Shown here one piece after another: positions 48,954 through 57,777 of a DNA stretch of 64,000 bases (within the stretch, counting starts at the first letter, position 1; every line of letters begins with the position of its first letter). Under the pieces are notes generated by a model. The model did no database searches. It saw only the letters and a list, made by a program, of their open reading frames with translations, and had not been told where the DNA came from. The position numbers were made by a program, and so were the translations under genes. Source of the DNA: Bradyrhizobium huanghuaihaiense (lineage in GTDB: Bacteria > Pseudomonadota > Alphaproteobacteria > Rhizobiales > Xanthobacteraceae); the NCBI RefSeq assembly GCF_007830635.1, contig NZ_VLLA01000018.1, forward strand, positions 62,001 to 126,000, written 5' to 3'.

Positions 48954-50273
48954 TCAGCCGGTCTTCGACCCCGTGATGGCCGCAAGCGCCTCGACGAAGC
49001 GGTCGAGATCAGCCTCATCGGTGTAGAGCGCCGGCGTTACGCGGATGCATTGGCCCTTGGCGACGCCCGCCCGGCGAACCGTCAGGACCTTATGCGTGTC
49101 CCTGAGCTTCGCCACGATGGCGTCGTTGTCGGCCTTGCTCGTCTTGCCGGCGAGGCGGAAGGACGTGATCGCGCCATAGAGGCCGGCCTCGTCCGGCGTC
49201 AGGATCTCGAGGTCCTTGAAGCCCCTGCTGCGACTGACCCAGTAGTCGCGCAGATAGCGCAGCCGCGCCTGCTTCGCCGCAGCGCCGATCTGCTGATGGA
49301 GCTCGACCGCCGTGGGCACCGTCAGCACCGTCGCAAAATTGACCGTGCCGGTGTGCACGCGCGAGCGGATGTCGGTTTCCGGGAAGTCCTCGTCGCCGAG
49401 GTCGCGGTCGATGGCGGCGAGGCGGTCCTTCTTGATGTAGAGGAAGCCGACGCCGACCGGGGCGCCGATCCATTTGTGCAGGTTGAAGCCGACGAAATCG
49501 ACCTCGAGCTCGCCCACCCTGAAGTCCATCTGTCCCCAGGAATGAGCGGCATCGAGGATGACGTCGATACCCTTCGCCTTGGCCATGCGCGCGATCTCGG
49601 CGACCGGCATGATGAGGCCGGTGCGGTGACTAACGTGGGTGAGGAGCAGAAGCCTGGTCTTCGGATTGGCCTCGAGCGCGCGGGCATAGGCGTCGAGCAC
49701 GCCCTGACGGGTGGCCGGCTCCGGCACATCGAACTTGACCACGTCGACGCCGCGGCGCGCCTTCAGCGCGTTCATGGCGTACTGCATCGAATCATAGTCG
49801 AGGTCGGCGTAGAGCACGCTGTCGCCGGGCTTCAGCCTGTTGTAGCCGCTGATGAGCAGCTGCAGCGCTTCGGTCGCACCGCGAGTGAGCGCGATCTCCT
49901 CCGGCGCAGCTCCAAGCGCCGCCGCCACCTTGGCCCGCACGGCCTCGAAATCCGCGCCCGCGCGCTGCCGCGCATAATAGGTGTTCTGATAGTTGACCAT
50001 GTCGGACAGGCGGATGAACTCGCGCCTCACCGGCTCGGCCATGATGCCCCAGAAGCCGTTCTCCAGATTGACGACGTCAGGCGTCACGGAATAGAGCCCC
50101 TTCACGGCCGTCCAATAGGCCTTGTCGGTGGCGATTGCGGCCGCAGGTCCGGTCGGCTGCGGCGGAAGGCCCTCGGCGGCAAGCGCCGGCGCCGCCAGCG
50201 GCGCGACGGCTGCGGCCGCGAGGCCCTTCAGGATCGACCGGCGGTCGGAAAAAATTGTCTTGATCGGATGCAT
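48954..50273 (-). CDS. Tat-exported PLP-dependent class V aminotransferase-like enzyme
   Basis: A 439-residue fold-type I PLP enzyme of the class V aminotransferase / isopenicillin-N-epimerase-like family. The PLP lysine is K267 in FNLHKWIGAPVG; D241 and H244 are in VILDAAHSWGQMD; LTRGATEALQLLISGY is the phosphate-binding region. Unusually it begins with a twin-arginine signal (DRRSILKGLAAAAVAPLAAP, residues 10-29, ending near ALAAE), implying folding with PLP in the cytoplasm and export through the Tat system. No cysteine-desulfurase signature is present. I start at the ATG at 50273. Substrate unknown. Confidence 0.85.
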   Translation of the reverse strand: MHPIKTIFSDRRSILKGLAAAAVAPLAAPALAAEGLPPQPTGPAAAIATDKAYWTAVKGLYSVTPDVVNLENGFWGIMAEPVRREFIRLSDMVNYQNTYYARQRAGADFEAVRAKVAAALGAAPEEIALTRGATEALQLLISGYNRLKPGDSVLYADLDYDSMQYAMNALKARRGVDVVKFDVPEPATRQGVLDAYARALEANPKTRLLLLTHVSHRTGLIMPVAEIARMAKAKGIDVILDAAHSWGQMDFRVGELEVDFVGFNLHKWIGAPVGVGFLYIKKDRLAAIDRDLGDEDFPETDIRSRVHTGTVNFATVLTVPTAVELHQQIGAAAKQARLRYLRDYWVSRSRGFKDLEILTPDEAGLYGAITSFRLAGKTSKADNDAIVAKLRDTHKVLTVRRAGVAKGQCIRVTPALYTDEADLDRFVEALAAITGSKTG

Positions 50274-50434
50274 GTCCACTCTCTCCGCGAAGCGCGGCGA
50301 AAGGAGCAGCATTCATTGACCGGGCGATGACAATCCGATGATGCCGGCGACCGCGCACAGGGAATGTGCGTGCATCGCGCGGGCGGTTGCGGGAATGAGG
50401 GCCGCGGATCGCGGCCCTCAGCCGAAGACCACGC

Positions 50435-50683: not shown

Positions 50684-51239
50684 TTTGCCTCAACCTGAAA
50701 CGGCCACCTCTGCTGGGGCCTGGATTGGTCCTGACTGAGCAAGCGGAGTGCCAGGAATGGGCGGGGCGAGATCTGGTTCAGGAGCGAGCTGCGCGATGGT
50801 CCGGCCGTCAGAATGGACCGGTGAACGCGCAAGCGGGGCGGAGCTCGCGGCCGTCGTTCGGCTTCACTAAGGATTGGGGAGATTCAGCGAACAGGCTGTG
50901 CGCCAGTCAGAACAAAATCAAGAATTCGTATATAATTGAAATTACTATATAAATTCAAGTTGCGCGGGAGCATCGGCGACCGACGTCTTCCCAACGGCGA
51001 CCCGCGCAACGGCAGCGCTCTGAGCTGCCCAGCACCAGAGCTAAGCAGGATTAGAGACCAGACTTCGAGACTGGCGTAGGCCCCGAGGGCGGCTCGTTGT
51101 GGCCGACCGCATTGATTGGGATAATGATCGTTGCCGGCCGCCTTGGCTTCTTCGGCGACCACGCCCATCTCGCCGAATCCCCCAATGCTTCGCAGCCTTC
51201 TGGCGCAACTGCTGGTTTACCGTAGGCAAACTTTGTGCA
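50684..51239. other. 556-base non-coding region with AT-rich patch
   Basis: The stretch separates the small reverse-strand gene from the cytochrome fusion gene. It has no convincing coding region. At 50922-50956 the local composition turns abruptly AT-rich and forms an imperfect inverted repeat: GAATTCGTATATA and TATATAAATTC. The rest is GC-rich. I found no integrase, insertion sequence or tRNA in it. It may be a promoter region or a junction of acquired DNA. Confidence 0.6.
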
Positions 51240-52982
51240 ATGAACGATGTCGCCGCTCGAACGAACGCCGATGCCTTGACCGAGAAACGCCTCGCTCAGA
51301 CAAAGACCCGAGAAAGCCCGCCACGCACCGATGTCGGGACGATCATTCTCCATTGGGCGACCGCGCTCGCGTTCGTCGTAAGCCTCGTTACCGGCATACG
51401 CATCGCAGCGGACGCGCTGCACGCCCCCTTCTCGAAATGGCTCGCTCCGGTCCTGCCGCAGGGCGAGATCTTTTCCTGGCATTTCCTCGCGGGGCTCGCC
51501 GTCTTCTTCTGCGGGGCGGCCTACGTCGCCTACCTCGCGCGCAGCGGCCTGGTCGAGCGCAACAGCCCCAAGAAGACGCGGATCCTGGCGATGCGCGCCC
51601 CGGCGCGCCTCAAATGGGGCGCCGTCAACGTCATCCTGCACTGGTTCGTCTATGCGCTCGTGATCTTCCTCACGGCGACGGGCGTCATGATGTATCTCGG
51701 CTATGGCGGCTGGTGGGCTTATCTCCACTCGACCGCCGCCTTCGTCGGGCTCGCCTATATCTTCGCGCATGTCGCCGCGCATTATCTCCATGGCGGCTGG
51801 CAGCAGATTTTCCGGGTGTTTCGGCCGACGGCGCTCGCGATCACGAAGGCCGTGCGGCCGAGACCTGTTCTCGTCGCCGCTGCAATCGGGGTGGCCGTCA
51901 CGTGCGGCGTCGCCGGGCTCGACTGGGCGACGCGCGATACGCTCGTCATCGCGCGGGTGAGCGCCGCGCCCAAGCTCGACGGCGCCATGGGCGATCCCGC
52001 CTGGTCGCGCGCGACCCCCGTCTTCATCCACACGCAACAAGGAGCGAATCTCTCCGGATCGGGCGAATCGCTCGTGGAGGTGCGCGCCCTGCACGACGGG
52101 CAGAAGATCTATTTTGCCTTCCGCTGGGAGGATCCCACGCGCTCCCTCCGCCGCGTTCCGATCATCAAGCAAGAGGATGGCTGGCACGCCCTCGACGAGC
52201 GTGCGGGCCTGCAAGACGCCTCCGACTTCTATGAGGATAAGCTGGCGGTCATTTTCTCGGACAATCCATCGCTAGGCGGCGCCGGCGCGACGGATCTCGG
52301 CGCCAACCCGCTGCCCGGCAAACCGATGCCGATCAACGGCCGGGGCTTCCACTTCACGACGGATGGCAGCTACATAGACATGTGGCAGTGGAAGGCCTCG
52401 CGCGGGGGCATGCTCGGGCGCGTCGACAGCCAATATATCGGCCCGCCCTACGCCCCGACCCTGGACGAGCAGAATTACAATGCCCGCTATCAGGGCGGCT
52501 ATTGGAATAAGCCTGGCCGCTCTCTTTATTCGTATAATTTCAAGTTCATCCACCGGGACGACAAAGGGCCAGTCACGGTTCTGCGGCTTCCCAAGGACTT
52601 GAAGGCGCAAGTCGCAGCCCTCGGCAAATTCGATCTTGATCCCGACAGCAACGACGACGAGAACGGCCGCTGGTACATGTTCGACTGGGAGAGCGAACCC
52701 TACACGCCGGAGGCCGACGCGAGGATTCCCGTGGGCACGATCCTGCCCGGCGTGATTATTGCTGGCGACACCGAAGGAGAACGAGCCAATGTCGCCGGAG
52801 TTTCAAAATGGAGCAACGGACATTGGACGCTCGAGCTGACGCGCAACATGAAAAGCGATGGCAGATATGACAAAGCCTTCGTGCCGGGCCGGGATCTCTA
52901 CATGTGGGTCGCCGTCTTCGACCATACACAGACGCGGCATGCGAGCCATAACCGTCCGGTGCGTGTGGTGTCGGAGAAATAG
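51240..52982 (+). CDS. Cytochrome b561-type membrane domain fused to ethylbenzene dehydrogenase-type heme-binding domain
   Basis: A 580-residue fusion. Residues 33-190 are a four-helix cytochrome b561/Ni-Fe hydrogenase cytb-like domain with helix histidines H38 (TIILHWATA), H81 (FSWHFLAGL), H134 (VILHWFVYA) and H163/H177/H181 (LHSTAAF ... FAHVAAHYLHG), enough for two b hemes. A fifth hydrophobic segment (VLVAAAIGVAVTCGVAGLDW, 210-230) leads to a C-terminal domain (240-575) like the heme-binding subunit of ethylbenzene dehydrogenase and DOMON-type proteins: VRALHDGQKIYFAFRWEDPT, FHFTTDGSYIDMWQWKA. It probably carries electrons across the inner membrane to a periplasmic partner. The reductase gene follows after 54 bases. 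No molybdopterin partner gene is present. Confidence 0.85.
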   Translation: MNDVAARTNADALTEKRLAQTKTRESPPRTDVGTIILHWATALAFVVSLVTGIRIAADALHAPFSKWLAPVLPQGEIFSWHFLAGLAVFFCGAAYVAYLARSGLVERNSPKKTRILAMRAPARLKWGAVNVILHWFVYALVIFLTATGVMMYLGYGGWWAYLHSTAAFVGLAYIFAHVAAHYLHGGWQQIFRVFRPTALAITKAVRPRPVLVAAAIGVAVTCGVAGLDWATRDTLVIARVSAAPKLDGAMGDPAWSRATPVFIHTQQGANLSGSGESLVEVRALHDGQKIYFAFRWEDPTRSLRRVPIIKQEDGWHALDERAGLQDASDFYEDKLAVIFSDNPSLGGAGATDLGANPLPGKPMPINGRGFHFTTDGSYIDMWQWKASRGGMLGRVDSQYIGPPYAPTLDEQNYNARYQGGYWNKPGRSLYSYNFKFIHRDDKGPVTVLRLPKDLKAQVAALGKFDLDPDSNDDENGRWYMFDWESEPYTPEADARIPVGTILPGVIIAGDTEGERANVAGVSKWSNGHWTLELTRNMKSDGRYDKAFVPGRDLYMWVAVFDHTQTRHASHNRPVRVVSEK

Positions 52983-53036
52983 GCATCTGATGAGGGGCGA
53001 CGGGCTCGACCGGAGGCTACTGCTAGAGGCCTCGCG

Positions 53037-54047
53037 ATGAAGAGGCATTGTCGGCTCGTCATCAACGGCAAGCCCGTCGAAGCCCGCGCCGGCGAAAGCC
53101 TGATCGATGCGGCGCTCGGCGGCGCGATACTCGTTCCACACGACTGCAGGTCGGGACAATGTCAGAGCTGCCGGGTGACGGTCGTTTCGGGCTCGATCGA
53201 TGACGGCGGCTCGGGCCATGGCCGCACTGTGCTCGCCTGCCAGGCGGCGGTCGCAGGCGATGCCGAGATCGAATTCGAAGAATTGCCGCTACCGGTGAAG
53301 CGGGCGGGCGCCGTCACCGAGATCAACCAGCTCTCGTCGGAGATCGCCGAAGTCGTGCTGACGACCTCAGCGCCGCTCGAGTTTCGGCCCGGACAATACG
53401 TGCGCGTCAAGTTTTCCGGCTATCCTGCGCGCGAGTTCAGCCCGACCTTCAGGCTCGATGGTTCCTTCAAGCAAGTCGAACTCGTCTTCCACATCCGCTG
53501 CCTGCCCGACGGCACCGTGTCGGGGCAGCTCGGCAAAGCCATCAGGCTGGGCCATGCGGCGCATGTGCAAGGCCCCTTCGGACAAGCCTATCTGCGACAG
53601 GGCGAGGGGCCGCTGGTGCTGGTCGCCGGCGGAGCAGGCTGGGCCCCGATCTGGGCGCTCGCCCGCTCGGCGCGCTCGACCCAGCGCAACCGCGAGATGG
53701 CGGTCGTCGCCGGCAGCCGGGATGTCGATAATCTCTATATGCTTCCCTCGTTGCAGTGGCTGATCGACGACGGTGTCCGCGACGTCATTGCGACGACGGA
53801 GGTCGGGTCTACCCTGCCGATCAGGCCCGGGCGCCCATCGCACTACCTGCCCCTGCTTGGGCTGGAGGATACGGTCTACGTCGCCGGCCCCGTTGGCCTC
53901 GTCGAGATCGTGAAGAACAAGGCGCACTCGGCCAATGCGCAATGCTACGCCGATCCTTTCCTGCCGAGCTCTCAAGCCCCATCGCTGATGGACAAAGTCA
54001 CCCGTCTATGGCGAAGCCGGGAGCAACCTCACCGCCCCGGTCTGTGA
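53037..54047 (+). CDS. 2Fe-2S ferredoxin/FAD/NAD(P)H reductase
   Basis: A 336-residue flavoprotein of the ferredoxin-NADP+ reductase superfamily with an N-terminal plant-type [2Fe-2S] domain: cysteines C37, C42 and C45 in HDCRSGQCQSCRVTV and C68 in LACQA. The FAD part has AREFSPTFRL (about 131-140, RxFS motif) and GPFGQAYL; the NAD(P) part has LVLVAGGAGWAPIWALARSA and VYVAGPVGLVEIVKNKA. It is like the reductases of oxygenase systems and of hydroxylase complexes, moving electrons from NAD(P)H to an acceptor. The gene starts 54 bases after the cytochrome fusion gene in the same direction, so it is the likely electron donor. C-terminal tail of about 25 residues is basic. Confidence 0.88.
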   Translation: MKRHCRLVINGKPVEARAGESLIDAALGGAILVPHDCRSGQCQSCRVTVVSGSIDDGGSGHGRTVLACQAAVAGDAEIEFEELPLPVKRAGAVTEINQLSSEIAEVVLTTSAPLEFRPGQYVRVKFSGYPAREFSPTFRLDGSFKQVELVFHIRCLPDGTVSGQLGKAIRLGHAAHVQGPFGQAYLRQGEGPLVLVAGGAGWAPIWALARSARSTQRNREMAVVAGSRDVDNLYMLPSLQWLIDDGVRDVIATTEVGSTLPIRPGRPSHYLPLLGLEDTVYVAGPVGLVEIVKNKAHSANAQCYADPFLPSSQAPSLMDKVTRLWRSREQPHRPGL

Positions 54048-54094: not shown

Positions 54095-54898
54095 TCACGG
54101 CTTGACGGGCAGACTACCGAGGCTGGTGATGACGTCGGCTGCCTTCTGCGCATCGGCAAAGCGTAGAAAGGCCAGGGCGTCCGGATCCTGCAACGTCTTC
54201 AAATAGATCAGCGCCAGCACCACGCTCGAGGGATAATCCGAGTCCGTCGGGTAGTGGCCGTCCACGCGAAGCACCGTGAGCCCCTGTTCCAACGGCCGCG
54301 AGAAAGGACCGAAGCCGATCGCGCCTTGAACTTCGCGAACCGTCTCGATCGCTTCCTGTGTGGTCGTTGCTATCTTCGATTTCTCGGTGATCTCGAGATC
54401 ATGCCAGCCGGGCATGCTGGCCCGTAGCACGGTGAGAGTGCTGTCCTGGTCCTCGCGCCGCACGACGCGGATGCGCATATCGGCGCCACCCAGCTCCTTC
54501 CAGTTCGCAAGGCGGCCCGAATAGATCGCAACGAGCTGAGCGCTTGTGACGGCACTCACTCCGCAGCCGGGATGGACGATGAAAGCTGAGGGGAGACGGG
54601 CGATCGCCTTGTAGACGATCCCGGAAGCCGCTTCGGCGTCGGTCAGGCGGCGTGCGACGCGCCCTAAGATCGCCTTACCGGACCCCACGGCCGCGATGCC
54701 TCCGCCAGAACCGATGCTCGGCGGGACCTCAACCTGTGCCGATCCTTCCTGCTGCATGAAGCTCGCGGCGATGGCCCGCAGGACATCGATGCCGTCTCCG
54801 GTCCCGACGATGTCGAGCTTGCGTGTTTCGGCGCCAGCGGCGTTCACCACCGCAAGGCAAAGGCCCAAAAGGGCTGCCATTATCCTCGAAAATGCCAT
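54095..54898 (-). CDS. PstS-like periplasmic phosphate/anion-binding protein
   Basis: A 267-residue exported protein with the fold of phosphate-binding PstS-like (substrate-binding domain) proteins. Signal peptide: MAALLGLCLAVVNAAGAETR. Key segments: LDIVGTGDGIDVLRAIAASF, PSIGSGGGIAAVGSGKAILG, RRLTDAEAASGIVY, SAFIVHPGCGVSAVTSAQLV and IYSGRLANWKELGGADMRI, the family's (I/F)SG.I.NW hallmark. The GSGGG-like loop could bind an anion. No pst permease genes are near. It is convergent with the flavin reductase gene (47-base gap) and divergent from the GGDEF-EAL gene. I start at ATG 54898. Confidence 0.83.
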   Translation of the reverse strand: MAFSRIMAALLGLCLAVVNAAGAETRKLDIVGTGDGIDVLRAIAASFMQQEGSAQVEVPPSIGSGGGIAAVGSGKAILGRVARRLTDAEAASGIVYKAIARLPSAFIVHPGCGVSAVTSAQLVAIYSGRLANWKELGGADMRIRVVRREDQDSTLTVLRASMPGWHDLEITEKSKIATTTQEAIETVREVQGAIGFGPFSRPLEQGLTVLRVDGHYPTDSDYPSSVVLALIYLKTLQDPDALAFLRFADAQKAADVITSLGSLPVKP

Positions 54899-55058
54899 TG
54901 CAGACCCCTTCGAACCACGAGGTGCACAATCTGGCAAAGAAACCTAAACCTTCTGTTGTCGCAACGTCGTGCCTTTTGGAATCATCGGCGTGGCGAACAG
55001 AAAGTGAAAGCACACAATCTGATGGGTTCGAAAAACCAGTTGGTAATTAACTAGGCAC

Positions 55059-55079: not shown

Positions 55080-55203
55080 TTTAGTGGGTTTCACTCGCCT
55101 AAATTCGGCGCCTGGAAGACACGTCAGTGGGGGCCTCAGTGAGCGACATTTGATCGGTCCCCGCAAGTTCAGGGTGCTGGCAGTGGTGGCGACTGACACC
55201 GAT

Positions 55204-57777
55204 ATGGCGAAGGCATCGAAGGCGCCGCCCCGCTGGCGTCGTCGGGCCGTTGCGTCCGGGGTTCCAGGTTTCCCCTCGTCTATCGCCATGCGCCTTGTTG
55301 CCGTCGTGCTCGCGACCGGCGTGCTCGGACTCGGCCTCATCGGCGGCTTGACGGCGCTACGCCTGCAGCAGCAATTGAGCCAGCAGGCTGCGGCACTGGG
55401 TGAACTCTCAGAAGACCAGCTCGCTCATCGCCTCGACGGCGAGGCGCAGTTGGCGCGCGCGCGAATCGAGGTCCTCGGCGCGGAAACCGCATCGCGCCTG
55501 CGTCAGATCGCTCAGCGCGCCGATGTCGCCAAGGCGGTCGCCTCGAACAACGATGTGACGATCCGCGAGCTGCTCAGCATCGTTGCTTCGACCTCCGGCT
55601 TCGAAAGGCTGATCGCCTTCGACGAAACCGGCCGCGTGATCGGTGCCAACACGCCCCTCGACCTCCTCGCTCTGAACGGGGCGATCGAGGGGACCGACCT
55701 CTCTGTCAATCTCAGGTCGATCCTCAAGCACAATAGCCGCTCGCACCCGCGGGGTGAGGAAGGCACCTATGAGCTCAAATTGGGTGAATTGTCGGCGCTT
55801 GGCCTGCCGAAGCGCCGCACTATAGCGCACACCGCAATCGAGCCCGTGTTCGACGACTTCGGCGACCTCATCGGCGCGCTTGTCGCCATCCGACCGCTCG
55901 GGCGGACGGAGGGGACTCTCGAGAACTTCACTTCGCTGGCTAATGCCGGCGTGGTCATCATCACGGGAGACAACGAGATCGTGTCTTCCGCGGGGCCTGA
56001 AGGGGTGAAATTCAGCAGCGCCAGGACGCGTTTGGGCGGGCTGCAGCGCTCGGATGACGGCAACTACGTCGCGCGCTGTGTCGAATATGAGGCGACGCTC
56101 AAGGTGTGTACGTTCGCGAGCGCATCGCTCGTGACGACGACACGCGATCAGATGTTCCAGATCGGCGCCGCCCATACCCGTTCGCTGATGTGGCAGTTCC
56201 TGGCATCCGCGGCGCTGGCGCTCGGTGCCTTGGTCGTCGCGCTATTGGTCGCCGTAAGGCACTTCACGAAAGGACTTTCGGCGCTCGCCAAGACCGCCCA
56301 GGAAATCGCGGGAGGCAATCTCGACGTTCCGTTCCGCGCAACGGGCATCGGCGAGGTTCGCGGCCTCGGCCTCGCATTCGAGCGAATGCTGACGCATTTG
56401 CGGGCCAGCACGCGAAGAATTCGTCAGCTCGCTTTCTACGATACGGTGAGCCGCATTCCCAATCGGGAGAAGATGCGCCTCGATGCGCCGGCGCTCATCG
56501 ACGCCGAAGAAGATGGAGCGCTGTTCTTCCTCGACCTCGATGGCTTCAAATCCATCAACGACACTTTCGGGCACAAGGCTGGCGACGAGCTGCTCAAGAT
56601 GGTGGCCGAGCGCTTGAGCAATTTGCTGACGTCCAAGGTCGCTGCCGGCAAAAGTCTGCTCGCCCGGGTCGGGGGCGACGAGTTCGTCGCCATCATCGCC
56701 GGGGTGAAGACGGTCGAGGCCGCGAGCCTCTGTGCCCGCGAGATGATCGAGACGCTGCAGGTTTCGTTCAAGCTCCAGAGCAACCATGCGACCATCGGCG
56801 TCAGCATCGGCGTTGCGATCTGGCCCACCCACGGCACGACCTATGACGATCTTCTGATCCGCGCCGACCTTGCGATGTACGTCGCGAAGAGCTCGGGACG
56901 CAATACCCACGCGTTCTTCACCCCGGATCTCGCAGAGGTCGCGCGTGCCCGGCATGCGCTCGAAACCGATCTCGCCTTGGCGATCCGCAATGAAGAGCTC
57001 ATCGTCCATTACCAGCCCAAGGTGTCCTGCTTGGATGGCCGCATCGTCGGGGTGGAGGCGCTGGCGCGCTGGCATCATCCGAAGGAGGGCAACATTCCTC
57101 CTCAGCGCTTCATCAAGATCGCGGAAGAGATCGGCCTCATCATGGAGATCGACCGCTTTGTGCTCAGGCGCGCGCTTGCCGAAATCGGGGGCTTGATCCG
57201 GGCCGGCTCAAACCTCGTGCTCGCCGTAAACGTCGCGGCGACGGAAATCGAGGACCCGCTGTTCATCAAGGATATCGTCACGACCGTTCGCAAGGCCGAC
57301 TTCCCGCCGTCACACCTCGAGATCGAGGTCACAGAGTCGGTCGCGATGCGCAATCCTGATGTCGTGCGCGAGAGAATAAGCCTGCTCAGGCAATTGGGCA
57401 TACGCTTCGCAATGGACGATTTCGGAGCCGGCTATTCGAATCTTTCGACGATGGCGAGGCTCCCCTTCGACGCCGTGAAGCTCGATCGCACGCTCGTCGC
57501 GGGTGTCGCGGAAGACCGCGAGAAGCAGACGATCCTTCGCCTGGCGCTCGGACTTGCGGACGAATTGGGGTTCGAAACGGTCGTAGAAGGCATCGAAACG
57601 GCCGAAGACCTTCGGTTCGCGGCCGAAAACGGCGCGACCATGGCGCAAGGTTATATTTTCTCTCCGCCGGTATCGCTCGAAGAGTTCACGGTCCTGCTCC
57701 AGCCGACCCTTTTGGCGTCGGCGGTCGAAGTGGCGCCCAGGCGACACGGAGCGGAGCGGCAGGCCGCTATCCGCTGA
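55204..57777 (+). CDS. Membrane-bound GGDEF-EAL protein with periplasmic sensor domain
   Basis: An 857-residue c-di-GMP enzyme. TM1 is at about 29-50 (MRLVAVVLATGVLGLGLIGG), a periplasmic sensor of about 280 residues follows (no recognised fold, CHASE/Cache-like), TM2 at about 327-354, HAMP about 355-405, GGDEF at 490-494 (RVGGDEFVAI, intact, in DGFKSINDTFGHKAGDELL) and EAL at 618-620 (VEALARWHHPKEG), with downstream DDFGAGYS and EGIET. Both motifs are intact, so it could both make and degrade c-di-GMP. I start at MAKASKAP; an earlier in-frame GTG at 55084, right after the direct repeats, would add 40 residues. A tRNA-Phe gene follows after 99 bases. Confidence 0.88.
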   Translation: MAKASKAPPRWRRRAVASGVPGFPSSIAMRLVAVVLATGVLGLGLIGGLTALRLQQQLSQQAAALGELSEDQLAHRLDGEAQLARARIEVLGAETASRLRQIAQRADVAKAVASNNDVTIRELLSIVASTSGFERLIAFDETGRVIGANTPLDLLALNGAIEGTDLSVNLRSILKHNSRSHPRGEEGTYELKLGELSALGLPKRRTIAHTAIEPVFDDFGDLIGALVAIRPLGRTEGTLENFTSLANAGVVIITGDNEIVSSAGPEGVKFSSARTRLGGLQRSDDGNYVARCVEYEATLKVCTFASASLVTTTRDQMFQIGAAHTRSLMWQFLASAALALGALVVALLVAVRHFTKGLSALAKTAQEIAGGNLDVPFRATGIGEVRGLGLAFERMLTHLRASTRRIRQLAFYDTVSRIPNREKMRLDAPALIDAEEDGALFFLDLDGFKSINDTFGHKAGDELLKMVAERLSNLLTSKVAAGKSLLARVGGDEFVAIIAGVKTVEAASLCAREMIETLQVSFKLQSNHATIGVSIGVAIWPTHGTTYDDLLIRADLAMYVAKSSGRNTHAFFTPDLAEVARARHALETDLALAIRNEELIVHYQPKVSCLDGRIVGVEALARWHHPKEGNIPPQRFIKIAEEIGLIMEIDRFVLRRALAEIGGLIRAGSNLVLAVNVAATEIEDPLFIKDIVTTVRKADFPPSHLEIEVTESVAMRNPDVVRERISLLRQLGIRFAMDDFGAGYSNLSTMARLPFDAVKLDRTLVAGVAEDREKQTILRLALGLADELGFETVVEGIETAEDLRFAAENGATMAQGYIFSPPVSLEEFTVLLQPTLLASAVEVAPRRHGAERQAAIR

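Follow-up and report, generated by a model that had tools for sequence, protein, structure and literature searches.

The window analysed here, a 64,000-nucleotide stretch of Bradyrhizobium huanghuaihaiense DNA (contig C18 of genome G000, 9.2 Mb), carries a conserved unit of four genes: a fusion of a cytochrome b561 membrane domain with an ethylbenzene dehydrogenase-type heme domain (EB_dh), a [2Fe-2S]/FAD/NAD(P) reductase, a PstS-like periplasmic binding protein (PBP) and a membrane transducer. We propose, with a probability of roughly one half, that the four genes form a module in which NAD(P)H electrons are sent outward to a periplasmic heme, and in which a sensor that depends on the PBP detects a ligand connected with this chemistry. 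A preliminary description of this DNA had covered the fusion and reductase genes; that pair stands, but the end it gave to the unit, 54047, is too early, as the conserved unit extends to 57777 and takes in two more genes. The PBP and the transducer are conserved partners of the pair that were missed there, and the earlier interpretation of the locus overall is partly supported. The closest named relatives found are Bradyrhizobium, with fusion proteins 90-96% identical.

The fusion protein and its reductase

Both parts of the fusion score well above their Pfam cut-offs. PF01292 is matched with 78.8 bits (cut-off 30.1) and PF09459 with 201.8 bits (cut-off 33.3), the latter placing the protein in the EB_dh family as the single PF09459 match in genome G000. 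On the same strand, 54 bases on, follows a complete reductase gene with Fer2, FAD_binding_6 and NAD_binding_1 in that order, all above cut-off. The preliminary description had named both genes in these terms and had read them as a trans-membrane electron conduit, an architecture with which the domains, the invariant histidines and the predicted topology agree.

Four membrane-domain histidines (H38, H81, H163 and H177) are invariant in 29/29 aligned fusions and, together with the PF01292 match, identify a prokaryotic cytochrome b561. H163 and H177 lie 14 residues apart in helix 4, the same spacing as in FdnI; by position and by the FdnI pattern, H38/H177 should hold the inner heme and H81/H163 the outer heme. 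The AlphaFold model of the fusion (pLDDT 78.1, pTM 0.76) has four long helices (32-56, 77-102, 122-152 and 158-194) and, ahead of the EB_dh domain (a beta domain), a fifth (209-231). Lys plus Arg average 4.6 in loop 2-3 and 3.3 in loop 4-5, versus 1.2 in loop 1-2 (25 rows). The positively charged loops would be cytosolic, so that the EB_dh domain is predicted to be periplasmic, and on this charge distribution we favour an N-in, C-out orientation with five helices. In VIA-align comparisons, which were applied to the fusion only, the membrane part of the model matched FdnI (Z 12.4) and E. coli superoxide oxidase (Z 11.2); since its scores of 10.5-12.4 fall within the range (below ~13) where, by the program's warning, helical bundles may reflect a common arrangement only, the identity of this domain rests on PF01292 and the histidines. 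In the public annotation of plasmid pCB82_1 (L092, 15139-16743) the fusion starts 46 codons too late, so that the invariant first heme His would be lost.

The EB_dh part aligned more strongly, with Z 17.8 to EbdC and Z 17.1 to NxrC. Its invariant residues in the same 29 fusions are H371, K385, H562, H567 and H570. According to the available part of PMC8840923, the heme of ethylbenzene dehydrogenase (EbDH) is ligated by Met and Lys, which are reportedly kept in dimethyl sulfide dehydrogenase, and has a potential of +256 mV. EbdC, NxrC and three relatives have in common an MG motif before WxW and a Lys close to the C-terminus. This C-terminal Lys is not present in the fusion family, where FDHxQxRHxxH occupies the region in the alignment, and H371 precedes WxWK one position from the Met of the relatives' MG motif, counting back from WxW. 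The comparison, made by alignment only and needing a one-residue shift at the Met and Lys sites alike, suggests that the Met/Lys ligation of EbDH is replaced by His in the fusion. With the C-terminal Lys absent and His in its region, the heme potential would lie below the +256 mV of EbDH, and we infer that such a lower-potential heme would be fit for handing electrons outward. The ligand numbers Met82/Lys190 for EbdC do not fit the EbdC chain sequence and were dropped. In the open-access literature, no title was found on a bacterial fusion of an ethylbenzene dehydrogenase-type domain and cytochrome b561, nor any paper that brings ethylbenzene dehydrogenase together with a ferredoxin reductase.

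The heme b gamma subunits of the type II dimethyl sulfoxide (DMSO) reductase family (EbdC, DdhC, SerC, ClrC; NxrC) have the same EB_dh fold. The fusion differs from them in being joined to a membrane cytochrome, in lacking their conserved Lys, in having extra His that are invariant, and in that no molybdoenzyme was found near it in the seven genomes searched. PF00384 matches exist in all seven (the 39 named loci described below were not searched), in six only on contigs other than that of the fusion; in the seventh, the single-contig genome G056, the nearest lies ~765 kb from the fusion. The fusion's contig in G068 is only 6.6 kb, so its lack of PF00384 says little. Against TIGR03477, the DMSO reductase type II gamma subunit, the fusion scores 15.5 bits, under the cut-off of 169.85, and TIGR03477 has no match in genome G000. 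A partner molybdoenzyme was rejected as a candidate on these grounds, and the fusion is not a molybdoenzyme gamma subunit, as score and gene context both fail. The earlier remark that no molybdoenzyme is nearby holds, and the fusion was not found widely beside a known one in the seven genomes.

The reductase is the regular gene partner of the fusion, directly 3' of it in 36 of the 39 named loci by tblastn (all but Alsobacter L044, Tateyamaria L046 and Parachitinimonas L047) and after it in 10/10 family genomes, where the G002 copy runs off the end of one contig and resumes on a second. No other conserved operon was found to which it belongs and from which it would be adjacent here by chance, the other outcome that the preliminary description had named in advance. 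Among 12 aligned reductases, C37, C42, C45, C68, R132, S135, G199, G201 and P204 are invariant. The best NCBIfam score is that of BenC, at 104.6 bits below the equivalog cut-off of 430; BenC-type dioxygenase reductases share the Fer2-FAD-NAD order, whereas the four-gene unit here is without a dioxygenase. In G003 (L060, 7109-11766, contig C7), the gene immediately ahead of an ABC exporter and a HlyD gene is related to the reductase, and no fusion was found within the 16 kb fetched.

Two known designs resemble the pair. MsrQ works with Fre, a cytosolic flavin reductase that feeds a membrane b heme serving a periplasmic enzyme, the molybdenum protein MsrP; the membrane family there is different, and the periplasmic partner here is instead a heme domain that forms one protein with the membrane part. 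The CYBDOM proteins of plants and animals (CRR, HYP1, SDR2) likewise combine an outside heme domain with a diheme b561 in the membrane, and the plant proteins reduce ferric iron outside, as far as the accessible text of PMC10784552 goes. The fusion falls outside the CYBDOM definition, only EB_dh and PF01292 being above the Pfam cut-off: it has a bacterial PF01292 b561, the opposite domain order and EB_dh instead of DOMON, and its partner is an NAD(P)H-type reductase, not ascorbate. Cellobiose dehydrogenase matched the fusion model at a borderline Z of 8.0 (VIA-align).

Sensor genes and their linkage to the pair

The PBP scores 68.6 bits against the phosphate-binding PstS model TIGR02136, under the cut-off of 206.6, and the genes beside it in the window code for the reductase and the transducer rather than for transporter permeases. 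Its residues D48, A95 and D165, all nearly invariant, align with three Ser of 4gd5 that we take to be anion contacts. Phosphate sensing was tentatively set aside, these presumed contacts being replaced and permease neighbours lacking. Elsewhere, G143 has a second PBP (L076, 9592-11304, contig C351) that is 57% identical to a family member and is neighboured by a Rieske oxygenase and, farther away, a PilZ protein. Distant PBP relatives adjoin a GGDEF-EAL protein in G140 (L081, 5001-8214) and a HAMP histidine kinase in G244 (L079, 8576-11388), with no fusion in either stretch fetched. The G140 and G244 cases point to a broader family of PBPs and transducers in which the output can be exchanged.

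In the window, the transducer has HAMP, GGDEF and EAL domains by Pfam, with the GGDEF and EAL signature letters intact; the same set occurs in L024, L034, L036 and L051, and PAS_7 is additionally present in both Methylobacterium transducers scanned. The model of its periplasmic sensor domain (pLDDT 87.5) consists of a long helix and two alpha/beta subdomains. Its best Foldseek match is the periplasmic domain of Vibrio cholerae LuxQ (3c30; E 1.5e-9, TM-score 0.59 by target and 0.48 by query), followed lower down by the LuxP-LuxQ complex of V. harveyi, with other dCache sensors ranking closely behind; the model thus points to a LuxQ-like dCache fold. The two Cys invariant in this domain are located in neighbouring model strands (237-244 and 248-255).

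A related periplasmic domain with HAMP is joined to an output of the methyl-accepting chemotaxis protein (MCP) type in Chelatococcus, Afifella, G003, G012, G056, G068 and G337. The MCP domain (cut-off 34.6) is strong in Chelatococcus L030 (103.1 bits) and L032 (101.5 bits) and above cut-off in G012 (47.4), G056 (49.8) and G068 (54.4); it falls below in L037, from an Afifella metagenome-assembled genome (24.8), and in L052 of G003 (23.1), and was not found by Pfam in L077 of G337, these three being assigned to the MCP type by similarity. Receptors L052, L037 and L077 may be losing their chemotaxis output. G003, G012, G056 and G068 have a separate GGDEF-EAL gene beside the PBP (by Pfam in three, by similarity in G068), and our guess is that the weakening MCP part and this adjacent gene mark a drift towards cyclic di-GMP (c-di-GMP) in those genomes. 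Two loci of genus g13 have an extra gene between the reductase and the MCP-type gene, a His-rich NicO/DsbD_2-like membrane protein in L053 (4478-5245) and a gene known by position only in L054 (9802-10581).

Linkage was assessed by gene clustering and tblastn in 39 named loci that encode a relative of the fusion. The PBP and the transducer stand next to each other beside the pair in 32 of them, as in the window, and do so in three arrangements. In 22 loci and the window, fusion and reductase are followed by a reversed PBP and a forward transducer; in five (four Chelatococcus, one Afifella), by a transducer and next a PBP, each of them reversed; in five Methylobacterium loci, all four genes are codirectional, with PBP and transducer touching or overlapping. 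Any further gene family is common to at most seven of 40 loci (window counted). Plasmid pCB82_1 of Bradyrhizobium sp. CB82 has the four genes together, flanked by recombinase and transposase genes.

Among 149 family genomes, ten (a lower bound, as are all counts from these genome searches, in which limited candidates per genome were scored) have a fusion at E <= 1e-30, six of the full type and four paralogues. Strong PBP profile matches (E < 1e-110) occur in exactly the six full-type genomes, which span five genera, two sharing one, and weak matches near 1e-26 in two other family genomes. The chance of this exact six-in-149 coincidence is ~7e-11 by our own arithmetic, which ignores kinship. 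The paralogue fusions (G138, G105, G122 and G002) are 39-42% identical over the EB_dh part and keep the reductase in other contexts, and no PBP match at E <= 1e-25 was found in their genomes. Across 385 class genomes, fusion and PBP occur together in G000 and G337; G219 has the fusion only, on a 3.9-kb contig, and G244 a weaker PBP match only.

Pairwise distances were compared over 21 loci with 1000 permutations, L043 being left out. Correlations were r 0.949 between PBP and sensor domain, r 0.925 between fusion and reductase, r 0.877 between fusion and PBP, and r 0.872 between fusion and sensor domain, and 0/1000 permutations reached the observed values. The switch between GGDEF-EAL and MCP output needs one change on the sensor-domain tree (branch support 67/86), three on the PBP tree and five on the fusion tree, with well-supported branches requiring at least two of the five. 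The output label clusters only weakly on the fusion tree, since as few changes sufficed in 38-39 of 500 shuffles. Long branches (L037, L077, L036 and others) leave parts of the trees unsure. In our reading, the tightest bond is that between PBP and sensor, and more than one sensor lineage has come together with the redox pair.

A PBP gene adjoining a transducer with a dCache-like domain is also the arrangement of NspS-MbaA and LuxP-LuxQ. NspS-MbaA relays a c-di-GMP signal (PMC8967002) and has been studied in Sinorhizobium meliloti as well (PMC9993111), according to the accessible portions of these two papers. Unlike NspS and LuxP, the PBP here is PstS-like rather than of the polyamine or autoinducer-2 type; the output of the transducer varies, and a redox pair is attached.

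Proposed mechanism and alternatives

In the proposed module, the cytosolic reductase would take electrons from NAD(P)H to FAD and then to its 2Fe-2S cluster, and pass them to the inner heme b of the fusion (H38/H177), from where they would cross to the outer heme (H81/H163) and on to the heme of the periplasmic EB_dh domain. This heme would reduce a small periplasmic acceptor. The PBP would bind a periplasmic ligand, namely the acceptor, its product or a compound signalling its presence, and dock on the transducer's dCache domain in the way that LuxP docks on LuxQ and NspS works with MbaA. The output would be c-di-GMP in the lineage of the window and an MCP-type receptor in Chelatococcus and others, and the cell would thereby tune attachment or movement to the chemistry of the conduit. 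Of these steps, we are least certain of the one that links the sensor to the conduit.

Only tentatively do we go further and envisage a redox-behaviour module in which NAD(P)H electrons leave for a periplasmic acceptor through a heme wire, this wire being coupled genetically to a PBP-dCache receptor that senses the acceptor or the redox state of the wire and, depending on lineage, drives c-di-GMP or chemotaxis. If true, energy taxis would have here a counterpart that is specific for an acceptor and has its own reductase. Molybdoenzymes are known to release electrons through EB_dh hemes; in the present case such a heme would end a membrane wire that has its own NAD(P)H-type reductase, and its ligation is apparently changed. 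The frequent company of the PBP receptor makes the system a test case, Bradyrhizobium included, for how bacteria might make the decision to stay or to swim depend on an electron sink in the periplasm.

Several observations weigh against the four-gene module. Seven of the 39 named loci (Alsobacter L044, Halomonas L045, L048, L049 and L050, Tateyamaria L046 and Parachitinimonas L047) have no nearby PBP and transducer, which implies that the conduit can exist without the sensor, and L044, L046 and L047 lack the reductase as well as the sensor genes. The second close PBP copy of G143 sits on a 13.7-kb contig without a fusion, and the distant PBP relatives of G140 and G244 stand beside fusion-less transducers. 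Related genomes inflate the permutation results, and the gene linkage could stem from co-transfer without function. Of eight MCP-type transducers scanned, five are above the Pfam cut-off, two below and one without a match, so that the chemotaxis output is partly doubtful. K385 of WxWK is retained in the fusion and could still ligate the heme.

The strongest competing explanation, which we nevertheless consider unlikely, is that fusion and reductase work on their own as a periplasmic reductase or detoxification system (acting on, e.g., ferric iron, quinones, superoxide or other radicals), with PBP and transducer travelling along and sensing something unrelated. The four Halomonas loci, which keep the pair without the sensor, speak for it, as do the resemblance of the membrane fold to E. 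coli superoxide oxidase, the occurrence of the four genes as a block on a plasmid and, in the accessible text of PMC10784552, the ferric reductase activity of the similarly designed plant CYBDOM proteins. It sits poorly with a sensor that is kept beside the pair in three different gene arrangements, with a close PBP that is confined to the six full-type family genomes (five genera) and present in 0/4 of the paralogue type, and with fusion and sensor distances that run in parallel.

We consider it improbable that the conduit itself serves as the input, determining how far the PBP or the Cys pair of the transducer is oxidised or reduced, so that the transducer reads the level of cytosolic NAD(P)H or whether an electron sink is present; gene linkage and the position of the two invariant Cys in neighbouring strands would fit, but a structural disulfide accounts for the Cys equally well. 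The hemes of DdhC and NxrC are exits of periplasmic oxidation. Electron flow in the inward direction, from a periplasmic donor through EB_dh and the b561 part to quinone with the reductase as a side partner, has the same role of the EbDH heme (PMC8840923) and the quinone reduction by superoxide oxidase (PMC11869295) in its favour, each as given in the available part of its source, but we give it the least credence of all, since the relatives' Lys is absent and His lies in its region, suggesting a potential below that of EbDH, and 36/39 loci have the gene of an NAD(P)H-type reductase directly behind the fusion.

Gene coordinates and neighbouring genes

Table 1. Positions in the window of the four genes of the unit and of domains, motifs and codons within them.
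Feature	Position	Strand	Basis
Fusion protein, 580 aa: b561 membrane domain (diheme-type), fifth helix, predicted periplasmic EB_dh domain	51240..52982	+	Pfam, AlphaFold model
Cytochrome b561 domain, residues 30-190, four helices	51327..51809	+	PF01292, alignment, model
EB_dh domain, residues 252-572, predicted periplasmic heme b	51993..52955	+	PF09459, fold matches 2ivf_C, 7b04_C
H371 codon	52350..52352	+	invariant in 29/29 aligned fusions
Motif FDHxQxRHxxH, residues 560-570	52917..52949	+	invariant in 29/29 aligned fusions
[2Fe-2S]/FAD/NAD(P) reductase, 336 aa, presumably cytosolic	53037..54047	+	Pfam, alignment
PstS-like PBP, PBP_like_2	54095..54937	-	Pfam, 78.5 bits (cut-off 27)
Transducer, 897 aa from first GTG: dCache-like periplasmic domain, HAMP, GGDEF, EAL	55084..57777	+	Pfam
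Periplasmic sensor domain of transducer	55357..56205	+	model, LuxQ fold match
Two invariant Cys codons, transducer sensor domain	56077-56079, 56107-56109	+	16/16 aligned

The open reading frame (ORF) of the fusion starts with ATG, and the same open frame has a GTG upstream at 51099. For the PBP, the TTG start is less likely than an ATG that lies 39 bases further in (near 54898), and the true start of the transducer may lie downstream of the first GTG. In a scan for promoters and terminators, signals were no commoner than in shuffled sequences.

The paralogue pair stands near an ABC exporter and HlyD gene in L055 (G138), L056 (G105) and L057 (G122); these calls were made by Pfam in L056, by Pfam for HlyD also in L055, and by gene layout in L057. 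A Cu amine oxidase lies near the pair in L056 and L057; L056 also has Hsp90, DUF3095 and gamma-glutamyltranspeptidase, and L055 an ORF of 1530 aa with weak P450 and DyP matches. On the minus strand of the window, 48954-50312 encodes a class V aminotransferase like periplasmic PvdN (127.1 bits, cut-off 650), whose family is present at 5/40 loci, the window counted.

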